Source of the DNA: Lentilactobacillus laojiaonis
GTDB lineage: Bacteria; Bacillota; Bacilli; Lactobacillales; Lactobacillaceae
NCBI RefSeq assembly: GCF_020616595.1
Contig: NZ_CP085278.1
Coordinates: 1-64,000 of the forward strand
Direction of reading: 5' to 3'
Length of the DNA: 64,000 bases
Below the pieces are notes generated by a model, which saw only the letters and a program-made list of their open reading frames with translations, was not told the DNA's origin and made no database searches. Positions 34,448 to 42,380 of the stretch are shown here, in pieces. Numbering within the stretch: the first letter of the stretch is position 1; every line of letters begins with the position of its first letter. The position numbers were made by a program, and so were the translations under genes.

Positions 34448-34804
34448 ATGGATAATTTTAAAGGTATGAGTATTGCAGAAGTTAAGGAACGATTGGAGTA
34501 TTTAAATAAAATATATCGTTTTGTGATCGTTAGATTCCAAAGTAAGCGCCCCAATAAAAAGCCAGTTTTTTTGATCTCCAATCGTGCTAATTTGGATCAA
34601 GTAATTGAAAAATCTAGTAATTTTTTTACTGCTAAAATCGTTCGGGATATGGTCTTAGTTACTGATAATTTAGCTTATTGGGCGATTTACCAAGATAAAT
34701 TAGATGAGCATAATCTATATTCGGAAGAACAACAACATATTATTAAAATGAATCGATACTTTATTAATCAAGTTTTAATCGAAAATAAAGTGCAAAAAAA
34801 ATGA
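34448..34804 (+). CDS. Protein of unknown function, 118 residues
   Basis: Not recognised. The sequence is soluble-looking, with alternating strand-like and helical segments (FVIVRFQSKRPNKKPVFLIS; VRDMVLVTDNLAYWAIYQDK) and a basic end. There is no signal peptide or membrane helix. AGGTGA lies eight bases before the ATG. It starts 10 bases after the Rossmann-fold gene, so the two probably act or are expressed together. Its stop codon overlaps the end of a hairpin that would work as a terminator on the opposite strand. Confidence 0.7.
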   Translation: MDNFKGMSIAEVKERLEYLNKIYRFVIVRFQSKRPNKKPVFLISNRANLDQVIEKSSNFFTAKIVRDMVLVTDNLAYWAIYQDKLDEHNLYSEEQQHIIKMNRYFINQVLIENKVQKK

Positions 34805-34838
34805 TAGTGCAGCCAACTGGGAATTGGCTACACTATCA
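34802..34838 (-). terminator. Minus-strand terminator hairpin
   Basis: TGATAGTG-AGCCAA pairs with TTGGCT-CACTATCA (one mismatch, 7-base loop). On the minus strand it is followed by seven T (34801-34795). On the plus strand A residues follow instead, so it would not stop the upstream genes. Confidence 0.6.
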
Positions 34839-35006
34839 AAAAAGTATAACTATGTAGTACGCCAGAGAAGGGCGTACATATAGGAGTTAAAGTCGAATTA
34901 AAAGTAGTGAGTTTATAGAAATCATAGAATAAGCAAACTAGGTAAAAACGACTTTGAATTGAACAAAATGAACAAAAATTCATTAAAAAATGTATGGGTT
35001 ATGGGT

Positions 35007-35036
35007 TTGAAACACATTTCTGTGTTCATATATAAT
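35007..35036 (+). promoter_or_regulatory. rexBA promoter with inverted repeat in the spacer
   Basis: TTGAAA (35007-35012), an 18-base spacer and perfect TATAAT (35031-35036). Inside the spacer AACACA (35011-35016) and TGTGTT (35021-35026) form an inverted repeat that could be an operator. It does not fit the Gram-positive LexA consensus. Confidence 0.6.
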
Positions 35037-35113
35037 AATAGACTTTTTAATAAATTGTTCAAACAATTAGCTTATAAATTTAGTGATTTAGTTTAAATAG
35101 TGAGGTAAACCGT

Positions 35114-38100
35114 ATGACACTGCAGTTTGTGCTAGGCAAGGCCAGCCAAGATCATCAGGCCGTTTTAATCGATATTCTTAAAAATAAACAAAAAGATTTT
35201 CCTAATGATACTTATTTTTATATTGTTCCAAATCACATTAAATTTGAAACTGAAATTCAAGTGATCAAACAATTGAATGAGGAAAACAGTAAAATAACTG
35301 CGCAAAGTCAACTGCAAGTATTTTCTTTTTCCAGATTGAGTTGGTACTTTTTAAGAGATACCCCTCAATATCAAAGACAACGAATTAGCCCGGCGGGAAC
35401 TAATATGTTACTGTATCAAATCATTAACCGCCGCGCTGATGATTTATATTTATTTGGTAAAGATGCTAATAAACCAGGATTTTTGCAAAAGTTAGCTCGC
35501 CAAATTAATGAAGTTCAACTAGGTAATATCCAACCTAATGATCTATTTGAGATTTTAGAAACTCAAAAAGTTAGTGATAGTTTATCCGATAAACTCCACG
35601 ATTTTAGTATCATTTATCAAGAATATATCGATCAAATTTCTCAGCAATATTTTGATAATTCAAATGGTATTCAACTATTAAATGATTATTTAGTTAATGC
35701 CGATTTACAAAATTATCATTTTATAATTGATGGATTTAATAAATTATCCGCACAAGAAATGCAGATACTAAATATTTTAATTCAAAAAAGTGCTAGTGTG
35801 ACGATTTCACTGAATTTAGACCGCGAATATCGCTTAGAATTACCTAACGCAACTAACATATTTTATCAACCAGCCAAACTATTTAATTACTTATACAAAT
35901 TTGCAAGTGCAAATCAGGTGCCATATTTAGCGGCACAATACGCTAGCAATTCTAAGAATTATCATGACTTAGAAAAATTAGAAGACTACTGGATTCAATC
36001 GAACAGTTTATTACCAATTACGGTAGATCATAAAATCCATCCGCAAAGTATTAAGATTATTAAAGCCGAAAATAAATATTCTGAATTGTTACAAATTACC
36101 AGTAAAATTCGTCAATTAGTAGCTACGGGAAATTATCGTTATACCGACTTTTTAATTTTAACTAGGCACCTAGATGGTTATCGAAATATTATCGAAGCTG
36201 TTTTTAAGATGCAAAATATCCCGTATTTTATGGATATTCAAAAGCAAATGATTGATCATCCATTTGTGGAATTTCTAGCAGCTCTTTTTGAAATCGATGG
36301 TCCAAATTTAGAACATCGCAGTTATCGCTATCAAGATATGATGCGATTATTAAAATCGGAATTATTAATTCCAATCGATGAAAATGGCCAACCGATGGAA
36401 TTAAAAAAATATCGTCGCGCTGTAAATTTATTAGATAATGCAGTATTAAAAAATGGCTATCTAAAATCTCAATGGTTACAGACTGCTGATTGGCAAGGAC
36501 TACCAGGTGACCCGAATGAAGACGAGATTCAACTAATAAATTACTTAAGGCATTTTGTTAAAGATACGTTGCCTCAATTTTATAATAAATTATTTAGTAG
36601 CTCGACTAATCAAATGGCACTAACGACTTTGTACCAATTTTTAAATCAAACGGGAGTCCTAGCCCAACTTAAACAATGGCAAAAAATGGCTTTAGAGCAA
36701 GCTGATTTAAATACGACCAACCAAATTGAACAAATTTGGAATACCTTTTGCCAAATTAGTGATGAATTTGCCAATATTTTAGGAGATCAGCCGTTTATGG
36801 CCGATACTTTTTGGCCGTTAATTCAAGCAGGCTTTCAAGGCGCTAATTATTCACAAATTCCATCTACGTTGGATCAAGTGGCCATTTCAGAAAGTGGAAT
36901 GGTCCAAGCTAATACGCATAAGGTAACCATAATGATTGGCTCAACGAATGAACAAATGCCGGCAATGGCTGTTGAAGAGCAGTTATTTGGTGACGATGAT
37001 AAAAATCAATTGGAAGCTAATTTACGTGATGATCAATATTTAAATGATCGAGCACAACTCCAAGTTAGTGGAGAAGTATATTTAAATTATTTAGCCTTTA
37101 TGAGTGGTCGAGAACGTTTGATTTTTTCGTATGCGCTTAGCGAGGGAGACGAACAAAGCATTAAAATTTCGCCTTATGTGGAACGGATTCAAGATTATTT
37201 TAAAATTAAGGAAATTAATCATCCGGCCATTCCAAATAATGATCAACCGATTGAGGCCTATCTAGGCACTAAGCAAACTACTTTACATCATTTGATTCAA
37301 ATTGCTCAGAATAGTTTTCAACAAAATCAAGCATTATCGCCAATTTGGCAATATGTTTATAATTTATTAATTAATGATGCTAACTATAAATCAAAAACGA
37401 AAACCTTAATTAGTAGTATCAATTATCGGAATATTCCGACCAAGTTACTAACTGAAAATGTAATTAATTTATATGGACAGAATTTGAAATTATCGATTTC
37501 GCAATTAGAAAAATTCTATAGCAATCCCTATGAATACTTTTTAAGATATGGGTTAAAACTTCATGAGCGGGATGAATTTGGATTATCATCGCAAAGTACT
37601 GGAAATTTTTTCCATGAAGCTTTAGATATGATCTTTAAATTAGTTAATAACCAAAACGTAGATTTAGTTAATTTAGATGAGCAAGCACTAGGGGAACTAA
37701 TTAATGAAGCCGTGTATAAAATGATTGAAGCCGATGATAGCCAATATTATATTTTAAAAAGTTCCAATCGTATGAAATACTTGGCGCAAAAATTACAGGC
37801 AACCATTAAGCGAATGCTTAAAATTATGCAAAAACAACAGACCTTTACTGGCATGCGGCCGAAAAAAACGGAAATTAATTTTGGCGTTGATGGCTTAAAA
37901 CCACTCACTTATAAGGTATCTGATCAACATAAGGTCTCGGTACGCGGTAGAATTGATCGAATTGATACCATGATCGATTCAAAAAGTGGCCAACGATATG
38001 TAGGTATTGTGGATTATAAATCGAGCCAACATGAATTTGATTTTGTAGATGCCTATAACGGAATTTCTATGCAGTTACCGACTTATTTGCAAGTCGTTCA

Positions 38101-38665
38101 AGATAATTTGGCCCAATTAAGTTCGGTGGATACTAAATTAGCGGGCGCTTTGTACCTTCATTTAAAGAATTCTAAATTATCATTTGAAAAATTAAAAAGT
38201 CAGGAAAACTTAGAAAGTACTTTATTACGCGATAATAAATATGATGGACTAATTGTTAAAGAAGATGATGATGACTATTTACTTCCATTATTGGACCAAG
38301 TTATTCAACCTACCGAATCTTCACTAATTTTTCCCTTTGGAATCAATAAAGATAATAGCCTTAAAAAAGCTAGTAAGGTAATTAGTGACAAGGCGTTAGA
38401 CAATTTGTTAGCTCATAACCAGCGATTAATTATTGAAGCCGGTCAACGAATTTATGACGGAGATATTTCCCTTGAACCATATCGTAAAAACCAAGAATCT
38501 AAAATTATGCAATATTCTCCTTATAAATCAATTATGAATTTTGATCCACTGCTAGGAGAGAATAATTATCGAGATGGCGATATTTATCAAGACGGTGAAA
38601 ATATTGAAAAATTAAATGCGAACTTAGTTAAAAAATTATTAGAACAGGAGAACCGCAATGATTAA
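35114..38665 (+). CDS. rexB: ATP-dependent helicase/nuclease subunit B, RexB (AddB type)
   Basis: One subunit of the RexAB complex, which resects broken DNA ends for RecA and processes ends at Chi sites. The 1183-residue protein has a degenerate N-terminal helicase-like region: FVLGKASQDHQAV stands where a Walker A would be, so no ATPase is expected. The C-terminal nuclease domain has GRIDRIDTM and IVDYKSSQ. The iron-sulfur cysteines of Bacillus AddB are absent: the region reads IMQYSPYKSIMNFD. This fits the RexB branch of Lactobacillales. AGGT lies before the ATG, and the last 8 bases overlap rexA. Confidence 0.93.
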   Translation: MTLQFVLGKASQDHQAVLIDILKNKQKDFPNDTYFYIVPNHIKFETEIQVIKQLNEENSKITAQSQLQVFSFSRLSWYFLRDTPQYQRQRISPAGTNMLLYQIINRRADDLYLFGKDANKPGFLQKLARQINEVQLGNIQPNDLFEILETQKVSDSLSDKLHDFSIIYQEYIDQISQQYFDNSNGIQLLNDYLVNADLQNYHFIIDGFNKLSAQEMQILNILIQKSASVTISLNLDREYRLELPNATNIFYQPAKLFNYLYKFASANQVPYLAAQYASNSKNYHDLEKLEDYWIQSNSLLPITVDHKIHPQSIKIIKAENKYSELLQITSKIRQLVATGNYRYTDFLILTRHLDGYRNIIEAVFKMQNIPYFMDIQKQMIDHPFVEFLAALFEIDGPNLEHRSYRYQDMMRLLKSELLIPIDENGQPMELKKYRRAVNLLDNAVLKNGYLKSQWLQTADWQGLPGDPNEDEIQLINYLRHFVKDTLPQFYNKLFSSSTNQMALTTLYQFLNQTGVLAQLKQWQKMALEQADLNTTNQIEQIWNTFCQISDEFANILGDQPFMADTFWPLIQAGFQGANYSQIPSTLDQVAISESGMVQANTHKVTIMIGSTNEQMPAMAVEEQLFGDDDKNQLEANLRDDQYLNDRAQLQVSGEVYLNYLAFMSGRERLIFSYALSEGDEQSIKISPYVERIQDYFKIKEINHPAIPNNDQPIEAYLGTKQTTLHHLIQIAQNSFQQNQALSPIWQYVYNLLINDANYKSKTKTLISSINYRNIPTKLLTENVINLYGQNLKLSISQLEKFYSNPYEYFLRYGLKLHERDEFGLSSQSTGNFFHEALDMIFKLVNNQNVDLVNLDEQALGELINEAVYKMIEADDSQYYILKSSNRMKYLAQKLQATIKRMLKIMQKQQTFTGMRPKKTEINFGVDGLKPLTYKVSDQHKVSVRGRIDRIDTMIDSKSGQRYVGIVDYKSSQHEFDFVDAYNGISMQLPTYLQVVQDNLAQLSSVDTKLAGALYLHLKNSKLSFEKLKSQENLESTLLRDNKYDGLIVKEDDDDYLLPLLDQVIQPTESSLIFPFGINKDNSLKKASKVISDKALDNLLAHNQRLIIEAGQRIYDGDISLEPYRKNQESKIMQYSPYKSIMNFDPLLGENNYRDGDIYQDGENIEKLNANLVKKLLEQENRND

Positions 38666-41600
38666 CTATACGGATAGCCAAAAACAAGCAATCAACGATC
38701 ATCCTAAGGGTAATGTATTGGTATCAGCCTCAGCTGGCTCCGGAAAAACGCGGATACTAGTTGATCGGATTATTAAAATGATCATTGAACAGGGAATTAG
38801 TGTAGATGAATTATTAGTAGTTACGTTTACTAAAGATGCTACTAAAGAAATGAAAGAACGGTTAGAGCAAGCGTTAAAAGCTAATTATCAAGCAACGCAA
38901 AACCAAGACCTAAAAGCATACTTGCTTAGCCAAATTCAAAAAATTCCCGTTGCCGATATTGCTACCTTTGATGCGTATTGTCAAAAGTTAGTTAATCGTT
39001 ATTACTATCTATTGGGTATTGATCCCAATTTTCGAATTTTATCCGATAGCACGGAAATTACCTTATTAAAAGATCAAGTCTGGGACGAAGTTCGTGAACA
39101 ATTATATGGAGATGCTGAGGCCGAAATATTTAAAGAATTAGTAGATAACTTTTCGAGTCGCGATGATCGAAACGATGATAATCTCACGGAATTAGTTTAT
39201 AAGATGTATGACTTTGCTAATGTTACGCAAGATCCCCAAGCTTGGTTAGACCAGGCCGTACAATTATATGAAATTGATGAAACGCAAAACCTCGTTCAAA
39301 GTTCCCTATTTATTAACGGAGTGTTACCAATTGTTCAAATGCAGGTTAGGGAAATTCAAAATGGCAAGCAACAAGCCTTAAAATTGGCTAGCGATTATGG
39401 ATTAGAACGCCATGAAAAATATTTAACGGATAATTTTGAGTTTATTAATCAGTTGGCAGAAATGTTAGCTAATCAGGCCAGTTGGGATCAAATTAAACAA
39501 TTTTTGACTACGATTAAATTTGGTAGGCTAACTAAAAAGGCTACCGATGATCCTCAGATTCATGAACAAATCAAGGATATAATTAAGGGATGTAAAACCA
39601 GTATTGAAGATTTGCGCAAAATCTTCCAGTTAACGGAAACCAAGGTTATAACTAACCTTAAGGAATCAAAACGCTTAGTTGATAAATTAATCCAAGTTGT
39701 TAAAAAATTTGCTAAGGCCTATCAACGGGCAAAACAAAAGCAAAATGTGATGGAATTTGTCGATTTGGAACATGCTGCATATAATATCTTAACTAGTTCG
39801 GATCCACGCTCACAAAATATTTTAACCAATTTACAGAAACATTATTATGAAATTCTAGTGGATGAATATCAAGACAACAATCAACTCCAGGATGCGATTT
39901 TAGATCAACTCAGTTTTGATAATAATCGTTTTATGGTAGGGGATGTCAAACAGTCGATTTATAAATTTAGATTAGCTAGTCCTCAGATGTTTGTGGATAA
40001 GCAAGTTCAATATTCGCAAACCGATAATGCCAATGAATTAATTACCTTATCAGAGAATTTCCGTTCTAACGAAAACATTATTAATTTTGTTAATTTGATT
40101 TTCAAACAAATTATGGATAAAGATTTGGGAGAAATTGATTATGATGAGGCCGCCCAATTAAAATTTGGTGCGACTTATTATCCTAAGGAAGTTTCCTCAG
40201 ATATTGAAGTTTTATTATATGATGAAAATGAGCAAAATAATGCCATTAAGGTCAATCAACAAATCGAAATTGAAAATTCTAAAGTAGCCCAGGCTACCAT
40301 AATCGCTAATAAAATTACGGAATTGGTTGAATCGAAAACCGAAATCTATGATCGCAAACTAGGGGAAACTAGACCGATAACTTATCGCGATATTGTGGTA
40401 TTATCAGCAACCCGCGGTAATGACCTAATTTTTTCTGAGGTCTTCAATAAATACCATATTCCAGCAGTCATTACCGGAGCAAAAAACTACTTTAAAACTA
40501 CGGAAATCCAAACAATGATGGCTTTATTATCTATCATTGATAATCCCTATCAAGATATTCCTTTAGTGGCCGTTTTACGTTCCCCAATCGTAAACCTAGA
40601 CGAAAACCAGTTAGCGTTTTTAAGAATTAATGATAAAACCGATAATTACTTCACCGCGGTTTTAAAATTTTATGAAGAGTATCAAGATACGGGTAACGTC
40701 TATCAAGCAGCTTTATATGAAAAGATTGCTAAATTTATGGAACAAATCAATTTATTCCGTGACCTTTCTAAACGCGTTGATTTGGTAACGTTAATTTGGC
40801 GAATCTATGAAGAAACAGGTTACCTAGATTACGTTGGGGGCATGCCCGCAGGCTATCAACGACAAACTAATTTGCATGCCTTGTATGAACGCGCTAGCCA
40901 ATATGAAAAGTCTAATTTTAAAGGGATTTTCCAGTTTGTACGGTTTATTAAACGAATGCAGGATAAAGATGACGATTTAGAACTAGCTACTCCGAAGGTA
41001 GAGGAGGATGCGGTCCAGTTGATGACTATCCACCGAAGCAAGGGGTTGGAATTTCCCGTTGTTTTCTTAAATGATTTGGATCATCAATTTAATGAGCATG
41101 ATACTAAGTTAAATTACGTCTTAAATGACCAACTGGGAATTGGTATTAAGTATTTTGAACGGGATACCCGAATTATTTACGATACTTTACCCTATACCAT
41201 TATTAAAGATCGTTTAGAAAAAGAGATGCACGCAGAGGAAATGCGTAAATTATACGTAGCTTTAACCCGTGCCGAACAACATCTTTATTTAGTTGGTAGT
41301 ATTAGTATTAAAAAAGATATCCAAAAACTCATTACGGAGTATCAAGATAGGGTTACTAATCAATTGATGATTCCTAAGGGAGTTCGGCTAAAAAGTAAAA
41401 GCTATGAAAAGTTGATTTTGGCAGCTTTAGCACGTCATCCCCAGGTTTATCAACAATTTGGTGATTCTACGGGTGATAAATTTTTAATAGATGACCCAAC
41501 TAAATTTAAAATTACTACCTATAATAAAAGTAATTTAGAACCTAATGTAGAATTGGAAGTAGCTAATCGCCAACCAGCTCAAGGATGGCTAGATAACCTA

Positions 41601-42380
41601 GAACAAACTAGTTCAAAAGTTCCAGAGGATCTTAATACTCAATTAATTAAGCAAAGTTTTGACTTTAAATATCCTTACCAGTCAGCTATTAAAACGACGG
41701 CTTATCAGTCGGTTTCTGAGATTAAACGTATGTTTGATGATCCGGACAACCAAGAACTAAGTAATATTAATTTAAATGAATTAAATCAGGTCCAACAGGT
41801 TGGTCGTTATTTGGATGATGAGTTTAGGGCTCCGCAATTTATGCAAAAAATCGCGCAGCCATCTGCTAGCGAAATCGGTACGGCTACTCACTTGGTACTC
41901 CAAAAAGTTGATTTAGCATTTCAACCGACTAAGGATTCTTTAAGTAAATTAGTGGACGACTTAATTAATCGTCAACTAATCACTCCGGCCATCGCGAAAC
42001 GAATTAATTTAAACCAAATATTGCAGTTATTTGATAGTTCATTAGGTCAGCAATTATTAAATCCAGCAGCTAAAGTTTATCGAGAAGTTCCGTTTTCACT
42101 TTTAATCAAGGCCGATCAACTATTTACTGGTTTTGAAAATGATGATCAAGCAATTTTAGTCCATGGAATTATTGATGGTTATATAATCTTAAATGATCAG
42201 ATTTTAATCTTTGATTATAAAACTGATCATATCAATTCGCATAACACGATTGAGGACATTAAACAACGCTACCAAGGTCAGTTAGCCATCTATGCCATGG
42301 CATTAGCTGATATCTTAAAGCGACCTATCGATGCTAAATATATCTACGCATTATCGGCCAATCAAGTGATTGAACTGTAA
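38658..42380 (+). CDS. rexA: ATP-dependent helicase/nuclease subunit A, RexA (AddA)
   Basis: Motor and second nuclease of the RexAB complex. The 1240-residue protein is a UvrD-like superfamily 1 helicase: Walker A SASAGSGKT (23-31), DEYQD motif II, QLMTIHRSKGLEFPVVF and the C-terminal helicase motif YVALTRAEQHLYLV. The nuclease domain ends with ASEIGTATHLVLQ and the catalytic LIFDYKTDHI. AGGAG lies eight bases before the ATG, inside the end of rexB, so the two subunits are translationally coupled. Without Fe-S ligands in RexB, both nuclease centres still appear complete. Confidence 0.96.
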   Translation: MINYTDSQKQAINDHPKGNVLVSASAGSGKTRILVDRIIKMIIEQGISVDELLVVTFTKDATKEMKERLEQALKANYQATQNQDLKAYLLSQIQKIPVADIATFDAYCQKLVNRYYYLLGIDPNFRILSDSTEITLLKDQVWDEVREQLYGDAEAEIFKELVDNFSSRDDRNDDNLTELVYKMYDFANVTQDPQAWLDQAVQLYEIDETQNLVQSSLFINGVLPIVQMQVREIQNGKQQALKLASDYGLERHEKYLTDNFEFINQLAEMLANQASWDQIKQFLTTIKFGRLTKKATDDPQIHEQIKDIIKGCKTSIEDLRKIFQLTETKVITNLKESKRLVDKLIQVVKKFAKAYQRAKQKQNVMEFVDLEHAAYNILTSSDPRSQNILTNLQKHYYEILVDEYQDNNQLQDAILDQLSFDNNRFMVGDVKQSIYKFRLASPQMFVDKQVQYSQTDNANELITLSENFRSNENIINFVNLIFKQIMDKDLGEIDYDEAAQLKFGATYYPKEVSSDIEVLLYDENEQNNAIKVNQQIEIENSKVAQATIIANKITELVESKTEIYDRKLGETRPITYRDIVVLSATRGNDLIFSEVFNKYHIPAVITGAKNYFKTTEIQTMMALLSIIDNPYQDIPLVAVLRSPIVNLDENQLAFLRINDKTDNYFTAVLKFYEEYQDTGNVYQAALYEKIAKFMEQINLFRDLSKRVDLVTLIWRIYEETGYLDYVGGMPAGYQRQTNLHALYERASQYEKSNFKGIFQFVRFIKRMQDKDDDLELATPKVEEDAVQLMTIHRSKGLEFPVVFLNDLDHQFNEHDTKLNYVLNDQLGIGIKYFERDTRIIYDTLPYTIIKDRLEKEMHAEEMRKLYVALTRAEQHLYLVGSISIKKDIQKLITEYQDRVTNQLMIPKGVRLKSKSYEKLILAALARHPQVYQQFGDSTGDKFLIDDPTKFKITTYNKSNLEPNVELEVANRQPAQGWLDNLEQTSSKVPEDLNTQLIKQSFDFKYPYQSAIKTTAYQSVSEIKRMFDDPDNQELSNINLNELNQVQQVGRYLDDEFRAPQFMQKIAQPSASEIGTATHLVLQKVDLAFQPTKDSLSKLVDDLINRQLITPAIAKRINLNQILQLFDSSLGQQLLNPAAKVYREVPFSLLIKADQLFTGFENDDQAILVHGIIDGYIILNDQILIFDYKTDHINSHNTIEDIKQRYQGQLAIYAMALADILKRPIDAKYIYALSANQVIEL

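Follow-up and report, generated by a model that had tools for sequence, protein, structure and literature searches.

A probable new structured small-RNA family encoded next to rexB in Lentilactobacillus, with a probable diverged copy in Lentilactobacillus laojiaonis

The window analysed here is a 64,000-nucleotide stretch of the Lentilactobacillus laojiaonis genome (assembly GCF_020616595.1, contig NZ_CP085278.1, positions 1 to 64,000). A 309-base gap (34805–35113), already picked out by a sequence-only reading of the window as lying between two plus-strand genes, was confirmed: the upstream ORF, which encodes 118 aa and has no Pfam match at E ≤ 0.01, stops at 34804, and rexB starts at 35114. 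The features of the locus are as follows.

34448–34804, plus strand: ORF of 118 aa, convergent with the RNA gene
34794–34838, minus strand: intrinsic terminator, a 17-pair stem (34838–34802) followed by eight T, overlapping the last codons of the ORF at 34448–34804
34795–35028, minus strand: predicted small RNA, roughly 230 nt between the expected start and the T run; place and strand as in 20 relatives
34857–34877, minus strand: GC-rich hairpin 4, GTACGCC-CTTCTCT-GGCGTAC, then TACATAG; ACGCC...GG[CT]G(G)TACATA in 18 of 20 relatives
34881–34887, minus strand: ACTCCTA, immediately 3′ of helix 3; same motif in the RNAs of 15 of 20 relatives
34889–34955, minus strand: long helix 3, AAAGTCG (34955–34949) with CGACTTT (34895–34889); counterpart of the covarying helix 3 of the relatives
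34967–34984, minus strand: hairpin 2, AATGAA-TTTTTG-TTCATT; counterpart of AATG-A-AAGC-UUUAU-GCUU-G-CAUU in the relatives
34994–35026, minus strand: 5′ hairpin region, from the predicted fold; hairpin 1 sits here in the relatives
35035–35062, minus strand: RNA promoter, TTGAAC (35062–35057), 16-base spacer, TATTAT (35040–35035); same register in 20 of 20 related RNAs
35114–38665, plus strand: rexB (addB), a DNA-repair gene, Pfam ADDB_N and PDDEXK_1; divergent neighbour of the RNA gene
38658–42380, plus strand: rexA/addA, directly after rexB; UvrD-type helicase

The minus-strand promoter, TTGAAC-16-TATTAT, is present at 35062–35035 as the earlier reading described it, and RNA synthesis would be expected to start near 35028. 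The internal hairpins are likewise present, the GC-rich one among them being GTACGCC...GGCGTAC at 34857–34877. The terminator had been given seven T and assigned to the minus strand only; the strand is borne out, since on the plus strand A follows the hairpin, which can therefore serve the minus strand only, but the number of T is eight. With no T run after the hairpin at 34794–34838 on the plus strand, read-through towards rexB is possible.

Counted by themselves, promoter-like sites are no commoner than expected (11 found and 12.2 expected in 2 kb), and terminator-like sites hardly are (2 found and 1.0 expected), in a scan that ignores stem length. The fold is more distinctive. Specifically, the RNA taken with promoter and terminator has a minimum free energy of −65.8, compared with −32.2 (sd 4.2) for shuffled sequences (z −8.1), and the part remaining after removal of promoter and terminator has a z of −4.7, reached by 0 of 200 shuffles. 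In the 5′ hairpin region, AACACA-GAAA-TGTGTT at 35026–35011 is one alternative; the predicted minimum fold forms a longer hairpin that exposes a C-rich loop, with ACCCATAACCCAT at 35006–34994. Helix 3 of the window encloses an AT-rich stretch.

The gap sequence has no second copy in its own genome at E ≤ 0.001, and a DNA search with it across 41 genomes returned, outside its own copy, short matches only (best E 9.6e-4 over 37 bases). A mobile or repeated element was rejected on the lack of a further copy in the own genome; searches of plasmids with the window and one relative, and of phages with another relative, gave no match.

We read the regions upstream of rexB in 24 genomes of the genus, the window's own included, and built a covariance model, R1, from 18 of the RNAs. 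In 20 of these genomes R1 locates the RNA upstream of rexB, on the strand opposite to it, with E values from 7.6e-31 to 2.9e-63. The 20 include L012 and L027, neither of which had contributed to the model and whose RNA promoters are 453 and 550 bp away from rexB. Long inverted repeats, seen by eye, stand between the RNA gene and rexB at these two loci and may explain the larger distance. A search of the 24 whole genomes with R1 returns the same 20 places and then weak matches (best 23.2 bits, E 0.0012); rexB adjoins the RNA in all 20 relatives. A single distant clostridial locus from the scan of RexB contigs was left out of the analysis.

Beyond the genus, R1 matches 20 of 397 genomes of the family, all of them in the genus and none among the 373 outside it, and 4 of 395 genomes of the order, namely three in the genus and one weak match of 20 bits; searches of more than 40 genomes ran with stricter filters, which diverged versions outside the genus could escape, as the window's does. 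At 25 rexB loci of sister genera, no R1 match falls below E = 1. A comparison of related lactobacilli, the check proposed together with the sequence-only reading, thus shows that 20 of 24 genus genomes share a structured, covarying RNA with the position and orientation of the proposed one. This supports the unannotated minus-strand small RNA of about 230 nt that had been put forward. As far as sequences can tell, the comparison shows an RNA gene, its strand, its structure in the relatives and its presence across most of the genus; transcription in the strain of the window would be expected.

The RNA of the family has five helices. The promoter, TTGAA[CG]-N16-TAT[TC]AT, keeps the same register in 20 of 20 relatives and is followed by hairpin 1, GGATGTA...TACATCC with a variable loop, and then, in most relatives, by unpaired AUUUGACCUAA. 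Hairpin 2 is AAUG-A-AAGC-UUUAU-GCUU-G-CAUU, followed by GAUCUUGUU. Helix 3 is long and encloses, besides a small hairpin, the nearly invariant GAUCUACCCCCAAUAUAUCU. All 18 aligned RNAs share GATCTA-CCCC-AATAT without change, except that L029 lacks one further C. On the 3′ side of helix 3, CUCCUAA (CTCCTAA in DNA) occurs in 19 of 20 relatives, and hairpin 4 with GUACAUA behind it is found by pattern match in 18 of 20. An intrinsic terminator lies downstream in 10 of 20 relatives according to a simple scan that misses some terminators visible by eye, as in L029 and L034, where it was found in that way. The 3′ arm of helix 3 appears by reading to have been lost in L026. The L026 locus also carries, at 903–1103 on the minus strand, the strand leading away from rexB, a T-box-like leader (75.8 bits, below the Rfam gathering score of 93).

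The R1 structure was drawn from helices read in single rows, and pair counts are therefore given on two alignments: A5, 20 RNAs fitted to the model structure, and A2, 18 RNAs aligned by plain MAFFT without fitting and with helix 3 misaligned in one group. In A5, 93.6% of cells pair, cells counting sequences of related species rather than events, and 20 of 40 pairs have changed on both sides, among them all 13 pairs of helix 3; helix 2 is paired in 100% of cells. The covariation score of A5 is 0.338, against 0.174 (sd 0.011) for shuffled alignments, none of 500 reaching it, and structures slid along the alignment give at most 0.080. In A2, both-side changes occur in 14 of 40 pairs (reached by 8 of 500 shuffles) and in 10 of the 13 pairs of helix 3, and the covariation score is 0.219 against 0.155 (0 of 500). 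Counts of further pair types are little above the shuffles, with 128 of 500 reaching them for A2 and 21 of 500 for A5. Helix 3 does not appear in the RNAalifold consensus, as one group of rows is displaced by a base in the MAFFT alignment. A further alignment, A3, with 8 RNAs, was misaligned and excluded.

The copy in the window is too diverged for the covariance model, yet keeps place, strand, promoter, hairpin order and terminator. R1 has no match to the RNA in the gap with filters off, giving only 2.1 bits there, at hairpin 2 on the other strand, and the conserved CCCCC motif of the relatives is missing. What is kept comprises the promoter spacing and much of the spacer (compare L022), a hairpin next to the start, AATGAA...TTCATT as hairpin 2, the long-range helix 3 AAAGTCG/CGACTTT, ACTCCTA after helix 3, the GC-rich hairpin 4 with GGCGTAC and TACATAG, and a strong terminator. 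A sequence profile of promoter and RNA scores 1.4 bits at the gap, through its promoter part, a value also reached by 6 of 2000 dinucleotide shuffles and, among 840 other windows of equal length, by 3; the promoter motif, whose pattern was written after the relatives had been seen, occurs in 2 of 2000 gap shuffles and 0 of 840 other windows. Across the 64 kb, the gap is the second-best match of the profile (E 3.7), and the shuffle and window figures therefore count only because the place was fixed beforehand. With R1 blank and the profile at E 3.7, the case for homology of the window copy depends on its place, its promoter and the order of its hairpins. We consider it very probable that the gap contains an RNA gene, and common descent with the family probable as judged from these retained elements.

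The other genomes without the R1 form bear on how the locus has evolved. A RexB tree (FastTree) of 23 genus members, with G023 left out as its gene is broken, places 19 RNA carriers in one clade with a support of 0.99; the window genome branches first, then G002 with G007 and G015, the branch that decides the deepest place between the window and G002/G007/G015 having a support of 0.50. At the rexB loci of G007 and G015 (L032 and L033), a promoter with 17-base spacing and a terminator stand at the same place and delimit a candidate RNA gene of about 240 nt, again with no R1 match. From promoter to terminator the two agree in 253 of 270 columns (93.7%), compared with 79–80% in the flanks (46 of 58 columns on the rexB side and 238 of 296 on the far side). 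In G002, the 700 bp next to rexB contain no such promoter, and R1 finds no RNA there. Our reading is that the sequence of a single locus has turned over in the small-genome branches, independent origin being the alternative.

There are rival explanations of the window features. That the RNA of the relatives is real while the window copy is unrelated or decaying, its hairpins and promoter being accidental features of an AT-rich gap in a genome that is shrinking, would account for the blank R1 result and the lost C-rich core motif, and the genome is small (1.24 Mb, 88.8% complete, against 1.5–3.3 Mb in the genus). However, chance or decay sits poorly with fold z values of −4.7 and −8.1, with an intact 17-pair terminator followed by eight T, and with a promoter in place and hairpins in order, and we regard this explanation as unlikely. 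The transcript could also be a small mRNA for a peptide of about 51 aa, as a 51-aa ORF does exist at 34828–34983 on the minus strand of the window. Among the relatives, however, ORF lengths and frames vary while sequence changes preserve the helices: in a count of at most four ORFs per locus, restricted to those with ATG or a Shine-Dalgarno (SD) sequence, the commonest ATG ORF is 16–62 aa long in 17 of 20 carriers, where by the rule of the script it never has an SD-like sequence, and is shorter than 15 aa or absent in L012, L029 and L031. No reading frame is kept across the 20 carriers, and we rejected the small mRNA, to which we give almost no credence.

An action in cis on rexBA would mean that the RNA or its transcription interferes with the rexBA promoter or leader; the earlier reading had suggested interference from an overlap of the two promoters. 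The overlap exists in the window, where a plus-strand promoter-like TTGAAA-18-TATAAT (35007–35036) shares two bases with the minus-strand −10 element, and the RNA stays next to rexB in 20 of 20 relatives. Interference, however, is not a conserved arrangement: the RNA promoter is 51 bp from the rexB start in the window but 78–550 bp in the 20 relatives, and, of the 22 other genomes that have an RNA promoter at this place, none has an overlapping plus-strand promoter-like pair. Furthermore, conservation spans the whole RNA, and its complementarity to the rexB leader does not exceed that of shuffles, the duplex energy falling among the best 5% of 200 single-base shuffles in 0 of 23 genomes (best ranks of 200: 18, 22 and 30, in L024, L029 and L033). 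Promoter interference with rexBA is thus possible in the window only, and a cis role as the explanation of the RNA is improbable.

The RNA matches no Rfam family. A search of the window gap gave nothing at gathering thresholds and three noise-level matches at E up to 10, and at the rexB loci of six carriers and of L032 and L033 nothing falls on the RNA, in line with the earlier statement that no known family could be matched. We therefore rejected tmRNA, RNase P RNA, SRP RNA, riboswitches and other Rfam families, none of whose models matches the RNA. The 6S-like identity that had been raised for it is not supported either, neither RF00013 nor a 6S model of sister genera giving a match. Specifically, RF00013 finds nothing in the window gap at E ≤ 10 and nothing at the rexB loci of six carriers and of L032 and L033 at E ≤ 1. 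The second model, R2, derives from 11 6S RNAs found in 8 sister genera, whose loci are the best Rfam matches, all over the gathering score, and not a random sample. As a control, it recovers all 12 of the further 6S RNAs tried from the family, with scores of 61–124 bits; six genera absent from its alignment contribute seven of the 12. All control loci are RF00013 matches, 9 of them below the gathering score, so that the control covers Rfam-visible 6S only. L125, at 154 bits with R2, had been kept out of the alignment but is identical to the training row L126 and is no control. R2 has no match to the rexB RNA in 12 of 20 carriers, nor in L011, L030, L032 and L033. On RF00013, R2 and the locus, which is rexB and not rarA–uspA, a canonical 6S RNA was rejected.

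A broader possibility is that the rexB RNA is 6S-like, either relocated or re-invented, and binds RNA polymerase in place of a missing rarA–uspA 6S. The genus has no 6S RNA visible to RF00013 or R2: RF00013 matches in 0 of 24 whole genus genomes (E ≤ 1), against 49 of 121 genomes of the family (E ≤ 0.01), and R2 does not exceed 24.7 bits (G016, E 0.001) in any of the genus genomes. A survey of lactic acid bacteria reports a 6S RNA between rarA and uspA for nearly all species (PMC8414754), and 11 of 11 sister 6S loci, from 8 genera, sit there; a small membrane-protein-like ORF stands between 6S and uspA in 10 of the 11, the genes being named by reading and not by profile. In the 12 of 24 genus genomes whose rarA was read (L097, L101, L102, L105–L112 and G006), rarA is followed within a few dozen bases by a small ORF, leaving no room for an RNA, and five larger regions have no 6S match. 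The rarA–uspA loci inspected include those of the window's own genome (L107, L113) and L114–L117. Two proteins with a RarA C-terminal domain are encoded in 15 of 24 genus genomes, and in several the gene next to the second RarA-type gene looks macro-domain-like by eye.

These observations make a genus-wide loss or strong divergence of 6S possible, and it speaks for a replacement that the rexB RNA occurs as a single copy with a length of about 200 nt. Such a role is nevertheless very improbable, judged as it is from sequence features. RF00013 matches are found in 21 of 40 genera of the family (E ≤ 0.01), and the absence is not unique, as 19 of 40 genera, this one included, are without a match. 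In addition, the RNAalifold consensus has no stem joining the two ends, although a stem of at least 3 pairs joins them in 6 of 20 single-sequence folds, and four genus genomes, the window's included, are without both the R1 form and a detected 6S. We rate marginally lower still the variant in which the genus deleted its rarA–uspA 6S and an unrelated rexB RNA, with the large internal loop of helix 3, took over the control either of RNA polymerase or of gene expression in stationary phase. The rexB RNA is thus like 6S RNA (SsrS, RF00013) in being single-copy, about 200 nt long and provided with its own promoter, but unlike it in adjoining rexB, not rarA–uspA, and in an RNAalifold consensus without an end-closing stem, which some single-sequence folds do show. 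6S RNA itself is a rod that has a central bubble and paired 5′ and 3′ ends, binds RNA polymerase and serves as template for product RNAs.

Other known RNAs close to the family are C-rich base-pairing sRNAs. Firmicutes have such RNAs in the RsaE/RoxS, FsrA and LhrC type, and unpaired C-rich stretches beside helices are a common layout of their base-pairing regulators. Like these, the rexB RNA is intergenic, with its own promoter and terminator and with unpaired C-rich stretches, next to covarying helices and among its most conserved parts, able to mask Shine-Dalgarno sequences; compared by description, it differs in having no Rfam match, a long covarying helix and matches in one genus only. As in trans-acting sRNAs, the RNA has its own promoter, is non-coding and has its own terminator, found in the window and, by the scan, in 10 of 20 relatives.

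We propose that a sigma-A-type promoter would drive transcription of the RNA away from rexB, and that the RNA would fold into a series of hairpins and stop at its own terminator. The unpaired C-rich stretches, GAUCUACCCCCAAUAUAUC and CUCCUAA in the relatives and ACCCAUAACCCAU and ACUCCUA in the window, would then pair with G-rich ribosome-binding regions and repress the translation of target mRNAs, the helices providing stability and presentation. The C-rich stretch is conserved and unpaired in the RNAalifold consensus of the relatives, ACCCAUAACCCAU of the window lies partly inside a predicted loop, and ACTCCTA could pair with Shine-Dalgarno sequences, a function that we infer, as we do trans-acting base pairing as the mode of action. 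With up to 3 mismatches allowed and G-U scored as a mismatch, the 24 genomes contain no complement of the 21-nt C-rich stretch outside the RNA gene. As there is no such long complementary site and the rexB leader is no target by energy, a protein-binding role is possible, and we hold the choice of a base-pairing regulator over a protein-binding RNA to be evenly balanced.

In the published record, the matches listed for open-licence literature contain, as far as their accessible text goes, no report of an RNA at rexB, and no title on small RNAs of Lentilactobacillus is among them. A long, abundant ncRNA is reported from RNA-seq in Lactobacillus salivarius (PMC5643018); it is also an ncRNA of a lactobacillus, and is set apart from the rexB RNA, by description only, as long and from another species. 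For Lactobacillus buchneri CD034, a likely member of the genus, the words 'small RNA', 'non-coding' and 'ncRNA' are absent from the main text of the transcriptome paper (PMC4521753). The same text does mention two abundant small 'hypothetical proteins' without an Rfam match (PMC4521753); their locus-tag numbers do not suggest the locus of the rexB RNA.

Taken together, we favour, with a probability of roughly 0.6, the reading that positions 35028–34795 on the minus strand of the window are a small non-coding RNA gene, a diverged member of a new genus-restricted family that likely acts in trans. The family itself is, on the comparison of genomes, a new and well-supported family of structured bacterial sRNAs found in one genus, and the window probably has a diverged member. 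As the genus apparently has no 6S RNA, one may ask whether something has taken its place, and what that would be. The covariance model and the coordinates make the RNA directly testable with the published RNA-seq data of L. buchneri CD034 (PMC4521753). For Lentilactobacillus, a genus of food and silage lactobacilli, the finding adds a well-supported structured RNA family that has no match in Rfam release 15.
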